45,322 bases of DNA from Candidatus Polarisedimenticolaceae bacterium. GTDB lineage: Bacteria > Pseudomonadota > Gammaproteobacteria > Chromatiales > Chromatiaceae. The DNA lies in NCBI GenBank assembly GCA_021648685.1, contig JAKISI010000025.1, positions 1 to 45,322 of the forward strand, read 5' to 3'. The position numbers were made by a program, and so were the translations under genes. Positions 18,452 to 37,150 of the stretch are shown piece by piece; the first letter of the stretch is position 1; every line of letters begins with the position of its first letter. Under the pieces are notes generated by a model. That model was not told the origin of the DNA. It ran no database searches and was given only the letters and a program-made list of their open reading frames with translations.

Positions 18452-19279
18452 ATGAAACGCAAAGTTTTTTATATTTCAGATGGTACAGGCATAACCATTG
18501 AGGCACTGGCCAAGAGCCTGTTAACACAGTTTGACAAAGTCACCTTCGATCGCGAGATCGTCCCTTATGTTGATACGGTTGATAAGGTCAGAAGTGTTGT
18601 TGAGCGTATCAATAAGTCAGCTGATGTTGATGGGCAACCCCCCATCGTCTTTTCATCCATGGTTGATGTGGCGTGCCGAAACATACTAGAGGCCAGTAAA
18701 GGGGTAGTGCTGGACTTTTTTGGCACCTTTATCAGCCCTCTTGAAAAGGTGCTTGGTGTTAAATCATCCTATACGATTGGTGGTGTCCACACGATGGGAA
18801 GCGGTGAAGGGTATGGACGGTGGATTGATGCCGTGAACTTTGCCCTGCAACATGACGATGGTCAGCAGGCACAAAAACTGGACACAGCAGACATTATTTT
18901 AGCCGGTGTATCGCGCTCAGGTAAAACACCGACCTCGCTCTATCTGGCAATGCAGTTTGGGATTCGCGCCGCTAACTATCCGTTGACCGAAGAAGATTTT
19001 AAACATGATGGAATCCCCGAATATCTAAAGCCCTATAAAAAGATACTTTTTGGCTTGACCATATCGCCCCAACGCTTAAGCAGCATTCGCCAGGAGCGTA
19101 AACCAAACAGCCGATATGCCTCCCTTGCTCAATGTCGCTCTGAGATACAGATTGCTGAGCGTATGTTTCAGCGTGAGAAAATCCCCTATCTGAATACAAC
19201 AGCAAAGTCGATAGAGGAGCTTGCATCGGGGATTTTGATTCAAACGGGGCTAAAGCGCCGTGCCGCCGTGGCCAACTAA
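18452..19279 (+). CDS. ppsR: PEP synthetase regulatory protein PpsR (DUF299 kinase/pyrophosphorylase)
   Basis: A bifunctional regulator that inactivates phosphoenolpyruvate synthetase by ADP-dependent phosphorylation and reactivates it by phosphorolysis. The 275-residue protein has FYISDGTGITIEALA at the N-terminus and the P-loop GVSRSGKTPTSLYLA in the middle. TISPQRLSSIRQERKPNSRY follows, all typical of the family. The target ppsA usually lies next to it in gammaproteobacteria but is not seen here. It follows recC by 16 bases and converges with soxZ, 10 bases past its stop. Confidence 0.94.
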   Translation: MKRKVFYISDGTGITIEALAKSLLTQFDKVTFDREIVPYVDTVDKVRSVVERINKSADVDGQPPIVFSSMVDVACRNILEASKGVVLDFFGTFISPLEKVLGVKSSYTIGGVHTMGSGEGYGRWIDAVNFALQHDDGQQAQKLDTADIILAGVSRSGKTPTSLYLAMQFGIRAANYPLTEEDFKHDGIPEYLKPYKKILFGLTISPQRLSSIRQERKPNSRYASLAQCRSEIQIAERMFQREKIPYLNTTAKSIEELASGILIQTGLKRRAAVAN

Positions 19280-19289
19280 TCTCTGCGCC

Positions 19290-19607
19290 TCATTTGATGG
19301 CCGCTTCAGCAATATCACTATTACCCCTGTTATCTGTCCATTTTAAAGTGACATGTTCGCCTTTTTTTCCACCTTCAAAACTAAAGGATAGATAGGGGTT
19401 CATCGGCATACCAGCGCCCCATTGTGCCGTCAATAAAACAGTCTCTTTATATCGGCATGTTACTTTTTGAATAAAGTGAGGTGGTATCGTGTCGCCTGTC
19501 TTGCTATTGACCCGATGGCCTGACTCCATGGGGTGGGTAATAAGCGCATTAACGGTTGTGGTGCCACGGTTATATTTGGCGCGTATCTCTATTGTTTTTG
19601 TTGCCAT
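19290..19607 (-). CDS. soxZ: SoxZ sulfur carrier subunit
   Basis: SoxZ pairs with SoxY to form the periplasmic carrier on which thiosulfate sulfur is processed by the Sox enzymes. The 105-residue protein has no signal peptide, as expected, since it is exported with SoxY. Family motifs are visible: ALITHPMESGHR, IPPHFIQKVTC, WGAGMPMNPYLSFSFEGGKKG and the C-terminal W-x-D (KWTDNRG). The sequence looks intact. It follows soxY by six bases. No soxXA, soxB or soxCD is in the window. Confidence 0.93.
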   Translation of the reverse strand: MATKTIEIRAKYNRGTTTVNALITHPMESGHRVNSKTGDTIPPHFIQKVTCRYKETVLLTAQWGAGMPMNPYLSFSFEGGKKGEHVTLKWTDNRGNSDIAEAAIK

Positions 19608-19613
19608 TAATAT

Positions 19614-20087
19614 CTACTCCTGCCTGGCTACGGTCCGTATTTTTTTACTACTGCTGTAGAGCCTGTTGCTGGCGCTTGCAATGACAACAATCTCACCACT
19701 GTTTTCTATTTTGATGCGTGTAGTAATCATTTTGGCTGTTTTTTGATCGAGCTTGAAGTGGGCAACCAGGGGGGATCGATTATTTGGGATGAATATACTA
19801 ATGGATTCAGTGCCAGGTAACTGGGAGTCGATTGTGATATGAGCGATGCCATTTTCTGCAATGACCGGGGCTGCTATCATTAAATCATCAGAGCCAGAAA
19901 TGACGGTGTTATCCCCCATCAGCTTCAGCAACGCCTCTTCAACCGAACGCGCATTAAAGGCCTCTTTTGGCCAGACCGTATTGCCTGTCGGGTGGGCATA
20001 GGCCAATCCCGCGCCTATGCTGCTTATCGCGCCCACGGCAAGCGCTCCTTTTAGAATAGCTCTGCGGTGCTGGCTGACATTTTTCAT
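19614..20087 (-). CDS. soxY: SoxY-family protein without cysteine or GGCGG arm
   Basis: A 157-residue SoxY homologue. It has a Tat-type signal (HRRAILKG, then a hydrophobic stretch to AYA) and the SoxY core: WPKEAFNARSVEEAL, IAAPVIAENGIAHITI, LPGTESISIFI and TTRIKIENSGEIVVIA. In normal SoxY the chain ends in GGCGG, whose cysteine carries the sulfur substrate. Here it ends NRLYSSSKKIRTVARQE, and the whole protein contains no cysteine. A run of seven A bases lies near the end, but neither other reading frame encodes GGCGG. This protein therefore cannot be a standard sulfur carrier. It lies between a BepA-like protease gene (11 bases upstream) and soxZ. Identity as a SoxY homologue is secure; function is open. 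Confidence 0.88.
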   Translation of the reverse strand: MKNVSQHRRAILKGALAVGAISSIGAGLAYAHPTGNTVWPKEAFNARSVEEALLKLMGDNTVISGSDDLMIAAPVIAENGIAHITIDSQLPGTESISIFIPNNRSPLVAHFKLDQKTAKMITTRIKIENSGEIVVIASASNRLYSSSKKIRTVARQE

Positions 20088-20098
20088 AGTGGCTTGCG

Positions 20099-21568
20099 TT
20101 ATTTTTTATGACGACGTTTAAGTTCGGTCAGCTCGGATTGAATCTGTTTCAATTGAGCAGACATTCGCTCTTCGCGGAACAGGGAGATGCTCTTATCTTG
20201 CAGCGCAATCATAAGTTGCTGTTTTGCCTGCTCAAGTCGACCTGAAATATAGTAGTAGTCTGCCTGGTACTCATGGGCTTGATTGGTGTCCCCCGCTTCT
20301 GCCGTTGCCTGTGCCAGGAGCTTATACAGTGCAGCATCCCGTGGACGATGAGGGGCGGTATGTTCAAGAATCTTACGTGCGGCTACAGGGTTTCCAATTG
20401 CTATCAATGTTTGCGCATAGGCCATCGTAATCGGGTAGTTATCAGGTGCCTCATTTAATGCAGTTTCAAGGGTGAGTGCAGCGATCTCTGGCTCTCCCGA
20501 TTGGGTGTAGAGACGGGCATTTAGCAGTTGGTAGGCAATTTGATTGGGATACGCCTCAAGCAGCTTGTTCAGCTCTTTTCTTGCCAGGCCGAGATCTTTG
20601 GCACGCATCAAGGCCAGCACATAACCATAGCGTTGCGCTGCTTCATTACGGTAGCGCCCATCAGCCAGTGTCTCCCTGAAAAAGCGGATAGCATCTTTTG
20701 CCTTCTCATACTGTTGTTCACGCAGAGTGACCCGCAGCAGATAGTAACGTACATCGGCCGGATACTGCTTGTAGGGGTATGCCTCTGCGCGGCCTCTTGA
20801 GTCTGAGATGCGTGTGGCCGTGACAGGATGGGTGCGTAAAAATTCGGGCAGGGTGCTGCCATAAAAGCGGGTAGCCCGGCCCATGCGCCCAAAAAAAACC
20901 GGCATGGCTCTGGGGTCAAAATTGGCATTGGCCAGGGTGTTTATTCCAATGCGGTCTGCCTCATGCTCATTGGCACGGGTAAAGTTGATCTTGCGCTGAA
21001 GCATGCCGGCCTGCAAGCCCATTGCGGCGGCAGCCCCAAGGTCTGTCCCGCCGCCAACCAGTATCGCAGCCAGTGAAATAGCGGCTATGGGCAGGTTCAT
21101 ACGGCTGGCATCATCAAATGTACGCAACAGATGTTTTTGTGTGACGTGCGCTATCTCGTGGGCGACAACAGAAGCCAGTTCGCTCTCAGTCTCTGTTGTG
21201 AGTACCAGGCCGGAAAATATACCAATATGGCCTGCCGGCCCGGCAAAGGCATTGACTGCTGGGCTATCAATAAGAAAAAAATGGAACTGTTGACCTGCTG
21301 CCTCACTGTTGGATGCCAACCGGTCACCAAGGGACTGGATGTAATCTGCAATCAGGGGGTCAGAGACTACAGGATAGTGGTTGCGCACACTGCGCATAAA
21401 GGCCTGACCCAGTCGCTGTTCCTGAGCCGGTGTCAGTATGCTGCCTGATGAGTCCCCAATCTCTGGCAGATGAAACCCATCACTGGCAGATGCCAGGGGC
21501 AAGAAGGCGCTTAAGAGCAGCAGGTTTAGCCCAAGCAGCCACCGGCCTGCTTTTACGTTTTTCCGCAT
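20099..21568 (-). CDS. BepA-like periplasmic M48 metalloprotease with TPR repeats
   Basis: A 489-residue exported zinc protease of the BepA/YfgC type, which in E. coli helps assemble or removes misassembled outer-membrane proteins such as LptD. It begins with a signal peptide (GRWLLGLNLLLLSAFLPLASA). The zinc site HExxH is VVAHEIAHVTQKH, with the further ligand region NEHEADRIGI. The C-terminal half is a TPR array (YQLLNARLYTQSGEPEIAA, AYAQTLIAIGNPVAA). The frame is open to an ATG at 21595, but ATG at 21568 gives a compact signal peptide; neither has a strong ribosome-binding site. It is the first gene of a likely operon with soxYZ and is divergent from dsrE. Confidence 0.88.
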   Translation of the reverse strand: MRKNVKAGRWLLGLNLLLLSAFLPLASASDGFHLPEIGDSSGSILTPAQEQRLGQAFMRSVRNHYPVVSDPLIADYIQSLGDRLASNSEAAGQQFHFFLIDSPAVNAFAGPAGHIGIFSGLVLTTETESELASVVAHEIAHVTQKHLLRTFDDASRMNLPIAAISLAAILVGGGTDLGAAAAMGLQAGMLQRKINFTRANEHEADRIGINTLANANFDPRAMPVFFGRMGRATRFYGSTLPEFLRTHPVTATRISDSRGRAEAYPYKQYPADVRYYLLRVTLREQQYEKAKDAIRFFRETLADGRYRNEAAQRYGYVLALMRAKDLGLARKELNKLLEAYPNQIAYQLLNARLYTQSGEPEIAALTLETALNEAPDNYPITMAYAQTLIAIGNPVAARKILEHTAPHRPRDAALYKLLAQATAEAGDTNQAHEYQADYYYISGRLEQAKQQLMIALQDKSISLFREERMSAQLKQIQSELTELKRRHKK

Positions 21569-21708
21569 TATGAATGAAGTGATGTGCCTGCACATGGCGA
21601 TGCTGCAATCCTACCTTAAAGTTGTCTGGTCGCGTAATATGAATTTTGGCATGGCTCTCTCTGGATACGAACTGTACTATACAGGGTTAGCAATTTGGAT
21701 CGTATGAA

Positions 21709-22101
21709 ATGAAATTTGTAATACAGGTTAATGAAGGCCCATATCAGCATCAGACAGCAGATTCAGCCTATCAGTTCACCCGCGCGGCACTGGCCAGGGG
21801 GCATGAAGTGCTGCGGGTGTTTTTCTATCATGATGGCGTAAATAATGGCACCCGGCTCACATCCCCCCCTCAGGATGATCGAGATATCGTCGGTCGCTGG
21901 TCTGCCCTGGCGGCGGAGCATGGGCTGGATCTGGTGATCTGCGTTGCTGCGGCCTACCGTCGCGGCATCCTTGATGAGAGTGAAATGAAACGGCTGGGTA
22001 AAGATGCCCATAATCTGGCTCCCGGGTTCAGAATATCCGGCCTGGGACAGTTGATAGAGGGCGTTGTGCTGGCTGACCGCCTGGTGGTCTTTGGAGATTG
22101 A
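21709..22101 (+). CDS. dsrE: Sulfur relay protein DsrE
   Basis: DsrE is the active subunit of the DsrE2F2H2 complex, which passes sulfane sulfur from the rhodanese/TusA side to DsrC in sulfur oxidisers. The 130-residue protein matches the TusD/DsrE family and keeps the active cysteine at position 78 (LDLVICVAAAYRRG), the residue known to be essential in Allochromatium vinosum. It starts a tight cluster: dsrF starts 1 base after the stop. The divergent partner is the BepA-soxYZ transcript, so 21569-21708 holds the regulatory region of both. Confidence 0.94.
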   Translation: MKFVIQVNEGPYQHQTADSAYQFTRAALARGHEVLRVFFYHDGVNNGTRLTSPPQDDRDIVGRWSALAAEHGLDLVICVAAAYRRGILDESEMKRLGKDAHNLAPGFRISGLGQLIEGVVLADRLVVFGD

Positions 22102-22102
22102 T

Positions 22103-22465
22103 GTGAAGATAAAAAAGTGCCTCTATGTCAATCGGCGCGCACCTTATGGCACCAGTTATGCCCTGGAGGCTATTGATATGGTTCTGATCGGCTCCGTCTT
22201 TGATCAGGATATATCACTGCTCTTCATTGATGATGGCCTGTTTCAACTGAAAAAAGGGCAGGATACGGCCGATGTTGAGATAAAAAATCACTCACCCGCC
22301 TATCGCGCCTTTGAGATGTACGATGTGGAAAAAATCTATGTATCGAAGGAGGCCATGGCTGCGCGCGGCCTCAAGAGAGCCGACCTGCTGGTGGATGTTG
22401 AGCAGCTGAGCGACAACAGGATCAAAGAGCTTATGGATGAACACGATGTCATCTTCTCCTTTTAA
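22103..22465 (+). CDS. dsrF: Sulfur relay protein DsrF
   Basis: The TusC-like subunit of the DsrEFH complex, structural rather than catalytic. The 120-residue protein has KKCLYVNRRAPYGTSYALEA at its N-terminus, followed by LLFIDDGLFQLKKGQ. The frame is open from an ATG at 22064 inside dsrE, but GTG at 22103 follows GGAG by six bases and gives the normal length. It is nearly contiguous with dsrE, and dsrH starts nine bases after the stop. Confidence 0.93.
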   Translation: MKIKKCLYVNRRAPYGTSYALEAIDMVLIGSVFDQDISLLFIDDGLFQLKKGQDTADVEIKNHSPAYRAFEMYDVEKIYVSKEAMAARGLKRADLLVDVEQLSDNRIKELMDEHDVIFSF

Positions 22466-22474
22466 GGCTATCCC

Positions 22475-22783
22475 ATGAGTATTCTGCACACGGTCAATAA
22501 ATCACCCTTTGAGAAGAACAGCCTGGAAAGCTGCCTGCGCTATGCAAAAAATGGCAGCGCCGTGCTGTTGATTGAAGATGGCATCTATGCAGCACTGGCC
22601 GGAACCACCTTTGAAAACACGGTGGCAACAGCCATGAGTGAACTGGATTTTTACTGCCTGGCCCCTGATATGAAGGCGCGGGGATTCTCGTCAAGCAGTA
22701 TGATTGATGGCATCAAACTGGTGGATTATGCCGGTTTTGTTGATCTTACAGTCGAATATGAGAAGGTTCAGGCGTGGTTATGA
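22475..22783 (+). CDS. dsrH: Sulfur relay protein DsrH
   Basis: The TusB-like subunit of the DsrEFH complex. The 102-residue protein begins MSILHTVNKSPFEKNSLESC, which places a cysteine at position 20, the conserved DsrH cysteine. VLLIEDGIYAAL follows. Its stop overlaps the dsrC start by four bases (ATGA), so the two genes are translationally coupled. Confidence 0.93.
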   Translation: MSILHTVNKSPFEKNSLESCLRYAKNGSAVLLIEDGIYAALAGTTFENTVATAMSELDFYCLAPDMKARGFSSSSMIDGIKLVDYAGFVDLTVEYEKVQAWL

Positions 22784-23112
22784 GTATTGAGGTGAATGGC
22801 AAGGTACTGGAGACCGACAAAGAGGGTTATCTGCTGGATCTTTCCCAATGGGAGCCAGCAGTGGCAGAGACAATGGCTCTGGCGGATCAGCAGGAGTTGA
22901 CTCCAGAGCATTGGGAGGTGATCCGCTTCCTGCGTGAATTTTATGCTGAATTTGCCATGGCACCAGCGGTGCGCATCCTCACCCGCGCCATTGGAAAAAA
23001 GTTTGGTAAAGAGAAGGGCAATGCCCGTTATCTCTATAACCTCTTCCCCTATGGCCCTGGCAAACAGGCCTGCCGCTATGCCGGGCTGCCCAAGCCATCA
23101 GGCTGCATGTGA
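22780..23112 (+). CDS. dsrC: Sulfur carrier protein DsrC
   Basis: DsrC receives sulfur from DsrEFH, and as a trisulfide it is the substrate or product of dissimilatory sulfite reductase DsrAB; DsrMKJOP recycles it. The 110-residue protein ends FPYGPGKQACRYAG then LPKPSGCM. This gives both tail cysteines, Cys98 and Cys109, separated by ten residues. Two cysteines mark true DsrC, whereas TusE keeps only the last. ATG at 22780 is chosen over GTG at 22774 because it gives the standard N-terminus. dsrAB and dsrMKJOP are not in the window. Confidence 0.95.
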   Translation: MSIEVNGKVLETDKEGYLLDLSQWEPAVAETMALADQQELTPEHWEVIRFLREFYAEFAMAPAVRILTRAIGKKFGKEKGNARYLYNLFPYGPGKQACRYAGLPKPSGCM

Positions 23113-23127
23113 CCTGTATAAAAAACC

Positions 23128-24498
23128 ATGTCTCACCTGCTTATCTCGGCGGCGCATAAATCCTCCGGTAAAACCACGCTGAGCATAGGACTCTGTGCCG
23201 CACTCAAACAACAGGGGCTGACGGTTCAACCCTTTAAGAAAGGGCCGGACTATATCGACCCCATGTGGCTGAGCCGTGCAGCTGGCCGCGCCTGCTATAA
23301 CCTTGATTTTCATATCAGCTCCCGGGCGGCAATAAAAGAGACCTTTGCACAACGCATGCAGGGTGCCGATATTGGCCTCATTGAAGGCAATAAGGGGCTC
23401 TATGATGGGCTGGATCTGAATGGCAGTAATAGCAATGCAGCACTTGCCACGCTGCTCAATGCACCGGTGGTTCTGGTTATTGATGCACGGGGTATGACCC
23501 GTGGCATTGCTCCACTGATCCTTGGCTATCAAGCCTTTGAGCCGGATATTCATATTGCTGCGGTCATCCTCAACCAGGTGGGTGGTTATCGGCATGAGGA
23601 GAAGCTCCGGCGGGTGATTGAACACTACACCGATGTGCCGGTGCTGGGTGCGGTACATCATGCGCCAGAGATAGAGATCATCGAACGCCATCTGGGCCTG
23701 ATGCCAAGCAGTGAAACTGCTGAACGTGATGAGATCATTCAGCGCATTGCCGATGCGGTTGCCGACCAGGTTGATCTGGGGAGAGTGATTGAGCTGGCCG
23801 CTGCGGCTCCCACTATTGTTCCGGTTGCCCCGACTGTGGTAACAGCCTCTTCCGGCAGAACCGTTCGGATCGGCATAGCGCAGGATGCAGCCTTTGGCTT
23901 CTACTATGCCGGTGATCTGGAACGATTTGAACAGGCGGGTGCCGAGCTTGTGCCGTTCAATACACTGACTGATAACAGCCTGCCGGAGATCGATGGGTTA
24001 TTTATTGGCGGTGGCTTTCCAGAGAGGCAGATGGCAGCACTGACAGATAACAAAAGCCTGCGCCAAGCCATCCGTGATTTTATTGAGGCGGGTGGGGTGG
24101 CCTATGTTGAATGTGGTGGCCTGATGTACCTGACGCGCAGTCTGAGCTGGAGAGGAGAAAAGCATGAGATGGTCGGTGCCATACCCGCTGACTGCCTCAT
24201 GTGTGAGCGACCGCAAGGTCGGGGCTATGTGCGCCTGCGCCAGACCGCTGATGCCCTGTGGGATCTGCCGTCAATTGTGCAAAAAGAGATTGCTGCACAT
24301 GAGTTTCACTACTCCAGGCTGGAGAATCTGGGCGAAGAGATCAAGTTTGCCTATGAGATGCTACGAGGCACCGGCATAGATGGTCATCATGATGGTATCA
24401 TCTATAAAAATCTTCTGGCCAGTTACACCCACCTTCAGGATACAGACCGCTACCACTGGGTAGCACATTTTGTTACCTTTATAAGAAGGGCAGGTTGA
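23128..24498 (+). CDS. dsrN: Cobyrinate a,c-diamide synthase family protein, DsrN-like
   Basis: A 456-residue glutamine-dependent amidase of the CobB/CbiA family. In dsr clusters the homologue DsrN is thought to amidate sirohaem to make the sirohaem amide cofactor of DsrAB. The N-terminal ATP-binding domain has HKSSGKTTLSIGLCAAL and KKGPDYIDPMWL. The C-terminal class I glutaminase domain has the nucleophile Cys329 in YVECGGLMYL and the histidine in AHEFHYS. It starts 15 bases after dsrC, in the place where dsrMKLJOP would stand in a full cluster. A cobalamin role is possible, but no cob gene is nearby, so DsrN is favoured. Confidence 0.88.
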   Translation: MSHLLISAAHKSSGKTTLSIGLCAALKQQGLTVQPFKKGPDYIDPMWLSRAAGRACYNLDFHISSRAAIKETFAQRMQGADIGLIEGNKGLYDGLDLNGSNSNAALATLLNAPVVLVIDARGMTRGIAPLILGYQAFEPDIHIAAVILNQVGGYRHEEKLRRVIEHYTDVPVLGAVHHAPEIEIIERHLGLMPSSETAERDEIIQRIADAVADQVDLGRVIELAAAAPTIVPVAPTVVTASSGRTVRIGIAQDAAFGFYYAGDLERFEQAGAELVPFNTLTDNSLPEIDGLFIGGGFPERQMAALTDNKSLRQAIRDFIEAGGVAYVECGGLMYLTRSLSWRGEKHEMVGAIPADCLMCERPQGRGYVRLRQTADALWDLPSIVQKEIAAHEFHYSRLENLGEEIKFAYEMLRGTGIDGHHDGIIYKNLLASYTHLQDTDRYHWVAHFVTFIRRAG

Positions 24499-36124: not shown

Positions 36125-37150
36125 ATGGACGAAAATCGAAAAAAAGCACTTAGCGCAGCTTTGAGCCAGATTGAAAAGCAATTTGGCAAAGGCTCTGTGA
36201 TGCGCATGGGTGATGCGGGTGCTGTGCGCCAGGTAGAGGTGGTCTCTACAGGTTCCCTGGAGCTGGATATTGCACTGGGTGTGGGCGGCGTCCCGCGTGG
36301 TCGCGTGGTTGAGATCTTCGGCCCGGAATCTTCAGGCAAAACAACCCTGACGCTGCATGTTGTCTCTGAGGTGCAGAAACTGGGCGGCACGGCAGCCTTT
36401 GTCGATGCGGAGCACGCACTTGATCCCGTCTATGCAGGGAAGCTTGGTGTCAACATGGATGAACTGCTGGTCTCCCAGCCGGATACAGGCGAGCAGGCAC
36501 TGGAGATCACCGATATGCTGGTACGCTCCGGCGCGGTGGATGTGGTGGTGATCGATTCCGTTGCTGCTCTGACGCCCAAGGCAGAGATTGAAGGCGACAT
36601 GGGTGACTCCCACATGGGGCTACAGGCCAGACTCATGTCACAGGCACTGCGTAAACTGACCGCCAACATCCAGCGATCCAACTGTATGGTGATCTTCATC
36701 AACCAGATCCGCATGAAGATCGGGGTGATGTTTGGCAACCCGGAGACCACCACCGGCGGAAATGCCCTGAAATTCTACGCCTCTGTCCGCCTGGACATCC
36801 GCCGCACCGGCGCCATCAAACGAGGTGATGAGATCGTGGGTAACGAGACGCGGGTAAAGGTCATCAAAAACAAGGTGGCACCGCCGTTCAAACAGGCCAA
36901 CTTTGAAATCCTCTATGGTGAGGGGATCTCTCACGAGGGTGAGCTCATTGCTCTTGGCGTCAAGCATGAGCTGATCAATAAAGCGGGTGCCTGGTACAGC
37001 TATAATGGTGATCGCATCGGCCAGGGTAAAGAAAATGTGCGCAACTTTTTGAAAGAGAACCCGGAGATTGCAGCAGAGATTGAAGCCAAGATTCGAGCCA
37101 TCGCTTTCCCAGAGGCCAAGGTAGAGAGAGCCGCTACGGAGGAGGTCTGA
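36125..37150 (+). CDS. recA: Recombinase RecA
   Basis: Forms filaments on single-stranded DNA, carries out strand exchange and stimulates LexA self-cleavage. The 341-residue protein has [20 protein letters not shown] at the start, Walker [18 protein letters not shown] (near residues 63-79), [20 protein letters not shown] and the DNA-binding loop region [19 protein letters not shown]. The upstream gap has a long inverted repeat but no recognisable gammaproteobacterial LexA box. recX follows 20 bases after the stop. Confidence 0.98.

Follow-up and report, generated by a model that had tools for sequence, protein, structure and literature searches.

The window, the whole stretch of 45,322 nucleotides that was analysed, carries a soxY-soxZ pair with a gene for a BepA-like M48 metalloprotease 11 bases upstream of soxY on the same strand (Table 1). 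The SoxY reading frame ends in ...LYSSSKKIRTVARQE, and no cysteine occurs anywhere in it. Divergent from this unit are genes for DsrE/F/H-like proteins and for a DsrC-type protein with two cysteines near its C-terminus (KQACRYAGLPKPSGCM), a pattern that we take to mark DsrC rather than TusE. The DsrEFH-like, DsrC-type and CobB genes (21709-24498) persist in genomes where no DsrA scores over its cut-off. On the other side, PpsR flanks the bepA-soxYZ unit in the genus wherever the contig extends far enough.

Table 1. Genes and features at the soxYZ locus, in window positions
Feature	Positions	Strand	Remarks
PpsR	18452-19279	+	convergent with soxZ
SoxZ	19290-19607	-	105 aa, one Cys (residue 51), 6 bases after SoxY
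Arm-less SoxY	19614-20087	-	157 aa, zero Cys; from profile scores, frame and fold comparison
SoxY C-terminal tail KKIRTVARQE	19617-19646	-	canonical SoxY has ...KKEVKVTIGGCGG there
A7 run	19640-19646		inside the SoxY tail region
BepA-like M48 metalloprotease with TPR repeats	20099-21595	-	HEIAH and EHEAD present
Divergent TusD/TusC/TusB (DsrE/F/H-like) genes and DsrC-type protein	21709-23112	+	layout conserved
CobB, cobyrinic/sirohydrochlorin a,c-diamide synthase family	23128-24498	+	

A SoxY domain without its carrier arm

An earlier note on this DNA had described a SoxY homologue lacking both cysteine and the GGCGG end, and the profiles bear this out. The protein belongs to the SoxY superfamily by domain and fold, scoring 61.5 bits against PF13501 (cut-off 28.4); the match covers profile positions 3-107 of 112, the last five being absent. 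SoxY_true_GGCGG (TIGR04488), which calls for a C-terminal GGCGG with a sulfur-binding Cys, gives 88.1 bits, below its cut-off of 125, and the window SoxY has no such end. Membership in two further families was rejected, TIGR04487 at 26.6 bits against a cut-off of 172 and with no AACIE arm, and TIGR04557 at 30.3 bits against 140. A model of SoxY, made from 45 aligned SoxYs, has a mean pLDDT of 83.4; values stay high as far as about residue 150 and fall off in the tail and leader. Among solved structures it most resembles Chlorobium SoxY (2nnc) and Paracoccus SoxYZ, and the 15 top-ranking PDB chains give a TM by target of 0.72-0.85. The protein has thus kept the entire domain but not the arm, and it is very probably no covalent sulfur carrier of the known kind.

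The SoxZ partner, which the earlier note likewise called intact, scores 108.7 bits against SoxZ_true (TIGR04490, cut-off 76) and adjoins soxY. The Tat-type signal ascribed to SoxY stands in part: R8 and R9 are invariant across the 45 aligned SoxYs, but the leader profile PF10518 reaches only 12.7 bits, under its cut-off of 22.7. The M48/TPR protein scores 391 bits against the BepA model NF052400 (cut-off 570), with its M48 and TPR domains and HExxH present.

Two other explanations were rejected. The earlier note had argued that a homopolymer error does not account for the tail, and indeed neither other frame through the A7 run yields GGCGG; in all six frames of the window the only GGCGG is an unrelated one at 36535. 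Because six other draft genomes share the arm-less end, a frame or sequencing error is excluded for practical purposes. A canonical soxY hidden elsewhere was looked for as well, and the window's genome (98.8% complete) gave a single PF13501 match at E up to 0.001, the arm-less one.

The arm-less state is shared across a genus

All six genomes of the genus, and G017 from another genus of the family, have one SoxY each, arm-less and Cys-free, with terminal residues read in the loci that were fetched; across the family, SoxY is present in 190 of 210 genomes. In a tree built without the tail columns, the seven arm-less SoxYs group as a single clade (SH-aLRT 95), and their tails vary in sequence and length. 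The frames of the soxYZ pair are open in all seven genomes, spanning two genera. bepA, soxY and soxZ lie in a row in each, with 1-12 bases between bepA and soxY, and the full-length bepA-like gene preceding soxYZ is the sole one in its genome (7/7). One strong BepA-like match per genome was likewise found in 13 of 13 genomes searched (278-1095 bits, runner-up at most 87 bits), and HExxH is present in the 12 of 12 linked M48 proteins checked. The seven genomes are all drafts (98 to about 240 contigs, completeness 94-100%), six of them probably MAGs; two share the project label Dive96, hence not all are separate studies.

The SoxXA and SoxB expected of a Sox system were not found in the seven genomes. 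SoxB has no match in them, while 164 of the 210 family genomes, a set that includes these seven, pass the cut-off. The best SoxA score is 20 bits against a cut-off of 110, and the best SoxX score 46.1 bits (in G017) against 61. DsrA reaches 54-57 bits at best against a cut-off of 393, and the 735-844-aa frames giving these matches are taken to be sirohaem nitrite reductases. Some Sox systems do without SoxCD, according to the part of PMC9959259 that was available. Loss of SoxB alone does not bring loss of the Cys, because G066 (89% complete) has no SoxB match and keeps two GGCGG ends. The genus-wide state, the sub-threshold SoxA, SoxX, SoxB and DsrA and the bepA-type M48 gene preceding soxYZ are context absent from the earlier note.

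Selection on the pair

Within the genus, NG86 yields a dN/dS for SoxY in 13 of 15 pairs, the other two being saturated, and the values span 0.12-0.33. Four close pairs give 0.20 (window and G002, bootstrap 0.11-0.34), 0.33 (window and G004, 0.19-0.56), 0.28 (G002 and G004, 0.17-0.43) and 0.18 (G001 and G003, 0.10-0.28). YN00 values are higher, at 0.18-0.44 where defined. SoxZ lies at 0.05-0.18 in 14 of 15 pairs, the closest pair standing at 0.33 with a bootstrap range of 0.12-1.48, and BepA at 0.05-0.12 (14 of 15 pairs defined, one saturated). The pairs share branches and so are not independent. These ratios, all below 1 and with no scattered stops in the relatives, indicate that the pair is under purifying selection within the genus. 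Open frames together with such SoxY ratios therefore point to neither error nor plain decay, and the decaying copy that had been put forward earlier is disfavoured.

SoxY has nonetheless become freer to change. Among pairs with BepA dN under 0.35, SoxY dN divided by BepA dN comes to 1.58-2.86 for 20 of the 21 pairs within the clade and 0.88 for the remaining one. By comparison, four canonical pairs give 0.36-0.81, although a single genus supplies three of them. Because SoxY outpaces BepA in this way, unlike in the canonical pairs, constraint on SoxY is clearly relaxed.

Probable origin of the locus

The order bepA-soxX-soxY-soxZ-soxA is found in many Gammaproteobacteria (L058-L060, L063, L066-L070, L072-L074, L078, L081, L083, L089, L108 and L164). 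The soxX and soxA labels rest on similarity to genes of L058 and L059 recognised by eye, and they agree with curated models where both are seen (L154 and L156, corresponding to hits in G030 and G021). One locus, L108, has this order and also shares the window's divergent DsrEFH-DsrC genes. By gene order, then, the window unit is a bepA-soxX-soxY-soxZ-soxA locus minus soxX and soxA.

Orphan-looking soxYZ genes are found elsewhere too. We chose 22 genomes by hand for such genes, their completeness unstated, and SoxB was found in three. Seventeen have bepA-soxYZ with no soxX labelled between (SoxB in two, no match in 15), three have soxYZ but nothing next to it labelled as bepA-like (SoxB in none), and L108 and L058, with soxX, have SoxB in one of the two. 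SoxYs ending in NGCG occur in bepA-soxYZ loci of genomes with no SoxB match (L077, L095, L106, L110, L111, L114, L117, L122, L123, L127 and L128). These are labelled Methylophilaceae, Methylopumilus or Methylotenera, except L128 (Sulfuritalea), and represent an orphan SoxYZ that keeps its Cys.

Cysteine loss in other lineages

Counted across homologues, absence of the terminal Cys is the state of the whole genus and G017, and it recurs in 7 of 50 loci of another family, f3. This family includes Methylophaga, the SoxY of L113 being identical to that of L209 over the columns used. A bepA-linked SoxY query matches 53 of 57 f3 genomes, one only through a distant copy; the 50 read leave out G257, G267 and G294 (distant copy only, split, or at a contig edge). 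Each of the 50 loci has an M48 bepA-like gene next to soxY, and SoxZ is seen in 49, the contig ending in the other. Asp, Asn, Ala or Val replaces the terminal Cys in L200, L221, L226, L227, L229, L242 and L249, with ends GGDA, GGNA, GGAV, GGDI (twice), GGNP and GGVE. These copies keep the GG, which the window SoxY does not. They fall together on the tree and need one change of state; the unrooted tree gives no direction, and from the presence of Cys in other families the change would be a loss. A second SoxY is present in five of the seven Cys-less f3 genomes against 2 of the other 43 (Fisher p 0.0002, kinship not corrected for, and 20-bit second matches in G287, G288 and G306 left out). Cys loss in f3 thus tends to accompany a second SoxY, whereas the window's genus has none.

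A further survey retained 80 of 150 relatives; its pattern came from the Cys-less set, so it is no census. The SoxY frame was read in 79 of its 80 loci (not L112), and the seven without a terminal Cys are L052-L057, taken as repeats of six of the seven clade loci, and L097.

Other Cys-less SoxYs were seen in passing. One at L038:1189-1683 ends in KISVENNR, as does that of L097. Its neighbour, a protein of 635 aa, matches an STM4015 family below threshold. The 3.8-kb contig shows no SoxZ, and further SoxYs in this genome carry GGCGG. Two loci from genomes of different families (L041:570-3239 and L040:8741-11387) each pair SoxZ with a SoxY that lacks the terminal Cys, ending GGYGMHFE in the first and SGFGS in the second. 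Both pairs are divergent from CadC-like proteins with a winged helix, one strong hydrophobic stretch near residue 160-190 and TPRs, and these units are possibly SoxYZ-based sensors.

A single origin of all Cys-less SoxYs was rejected, since parsimony calls for at least four changes and starred branches force two, a count made unsure by 61 of 134 inner branches left open and by long branches. The tree holds 137 rows, 11 of them without the Cys, after removal of duplicate copies and of one row containing X; tail columns were deliberately omitted. The arm-less clade is placed beside L099, L109 and L130, weakly (85, no star), and this placement may be long-branch attraction.

Discussion

We tentatively favor a reading in which SoxYZ may have ceased to carry sulfur and been retained in the periplasm as a partner that binds a BepA-type protease non-covalently. 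The pair would descend from a working bepA-soxX-soxY-soxZ-soxA locus in a lineage that lost SoxX, SoxA and SoxB and whose SoxY lost its carrier arm, the order of these losses being our reconstruction. Arm-less SoxY would then no longer hold sulfur covalently in the known way. The pair would have been kept, probably exported as a folded heterodimer through the Tat leader of SoxY, as we presume known SoxYZ to be, and would be made from one transcript with the protease. Its job would most likely be that of a protein-binding accessory (adaptor, brake or stabiliser) of a periplasmic M48/TPR protease in outer-membrane quality control, and SoxYZ may contact BepA directly. We lean this way because a carrier without its carrying residue, in genomes where no loading or unloading enzymes were found, is nevertheless selected and tied to a protease gene. 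The f3 parallel, the missing SoxB match in 15 of the 17 bepA-soxYZ genomes chosen for lacking an adjacent soxX, and the listing of an M48 gene and SoxZ together among genes up-regulated on pyrite in Allochromatium vinosum speak for it as well. The structural, sensory or regulatory partner role suggested by the earlier note is possible.

The relaxed constraint on SoxY, its higher YN00 ratios and a bootstrap range reaching above 1 for the closest SoxZ pair count against a protease partner. In addition, the adjacency of bepA and soxYZ is older than the Cys loss, and soxYZ could therefore persist by linkage. Moreover, 43 of the 50 f3 loci retain the Cys, as do the bepA-soxYZ loci read elsewhere, so the ancestral job of the unit probably used it. 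The main rival builds on such linkage and is a serious if lesser prospect: with the Sox pathway lost, soxYZ would be inessential and eroding slowly while it survives inside the bepA transcript, the arm being lost first. The shortfall of SoxA, SoxX, SoxB and DsrA would be expected of such erosion, as would the variable SoxY tail and a SoxY dN relative to BepA several-fold above that of the four canonical pairs. Frames that stay open in all seven genomes across two genera speak against it, as do the low dN/dS of both SoxY and SoxZ and the f3 family, where the Cys was also lost without loss of the unit.

It is less probable, indeed unlikely, that arm-less SoxYZ acts as a sensor or regulator, binding a sulfur anion or a partner protein non-covalently and signaling. 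The CadC-linked SoxYZ pairs of L041 and L040 lend this some appeal, but both of their SoxYs are long branches that do not group with the window SoxY, and no transcription regulator adjoins the window's pair. We consider it very doubtful that the pair is still a carrier by way of another thiol such as SoxZ Cys51. That residue is kept in all seven arm-less pairs of the clade, yet two of the three canonical SoxZs aligned with them have it too, on which ground it was rejected as a new carrier; it is no evident replacement, and there is no SoxA, SoxX or SoxB over cut-off to load or unload it. That the pair is an ordinary carrier whose true soxY or Sox enzymes went unassembled is conceivable for drafts of so many contigs but scarcely credible at their completeness, with the same absence in seven drafts (two under the Dive96 label).

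Beyond the protease-partner reading, one may speculate, at rather long odds, that SoxYZ is at root a periplasmic docker on TPR proteins, whether BepA-type proteases or CadC-type regulators, and that the Cys arm is one of the uses to which it has been put. In lineages without the Sox enzymes, selection would act on docking alone, leaving arm-less or Cys-less SoxYZ beside a protease in at least two lineages and beside a CadC-like regulator in others.

A single Cys defines SoxYZ in its known role as a carrier. A Cys-less SoxYZ that is under selection, with no SoxA, SoxX or SoxB found, would demonstrate a further function, which gene order links to outer-membrane quality control. In a broader context, detecting soxYZ in a metagenome should not be equated with thiosulfate oxidation, as soxYZ without soxB was found here and in 19 of the 22 hand-chosen genomes.

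Comparison with known SoxY systems

In the literature searched, which covered few subscription papers and some sources in part, we found neither an arm-less SoxYZ nor a connection between BepA and SoxYZ described. Divergent arms have precedent in symbionts, where the available part of PMC11237559 describes signatures 1b-4, even for a genome's only soxY; that part describes no loss of the whole arm and no bepA link, and one signature may lack the Cys.

In Allochromatium vinosum, Alvin_2110-2112 are probably of the same bepA-linked type as the window, and from their locus numbers we infer that the M48 gene Alvin_2110 and the SoxZ gene Alvin_2112 are neighbours. Both are in the up-regulated list for growth on pyrite (2.50 and 2.40), while other sox genes seemed unaffected, in the portion of PMC11267869 that was available.

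The same gene order and strand are seen in bepA-linked soxYZ loci of other Gammaproteobacteria (such as L058 and L108). Unlike the window, these loci retain GGCGG, and their operons include soxX and soxA. The methylotroph loci (Methylophilaceae, and family f3 with Methylophaga) have bepA-soxY-soxZ in a row as the window does, often with no SoxB match in the genome, but their SoxYs mostly end in GGCG, GGCA, GGCS or NGCG. TIGR04487, with its AACIE arm, and TIGR04557, the SoxYZ-like carrier of quinoprotein dehydrogenases, have SoxY homology in common with the window, whose SoxY is far below both cut-offs and is not fused to SoxZ. With the SoxYZ of the thiosulfate-oxidising Sox system (Paracoccus pantotrophus 2ox5, 2oxg and 2oxh; Chlorobium limicola SoxY 2nnc), the window pair shares the SoxY fold, the SoxZ partner and a Tat-like leader; it differs in having neither the GGCGG arm nor any Cys in SoxY, in a genome with no SoxA, SoxX or SoxB over cut-off.
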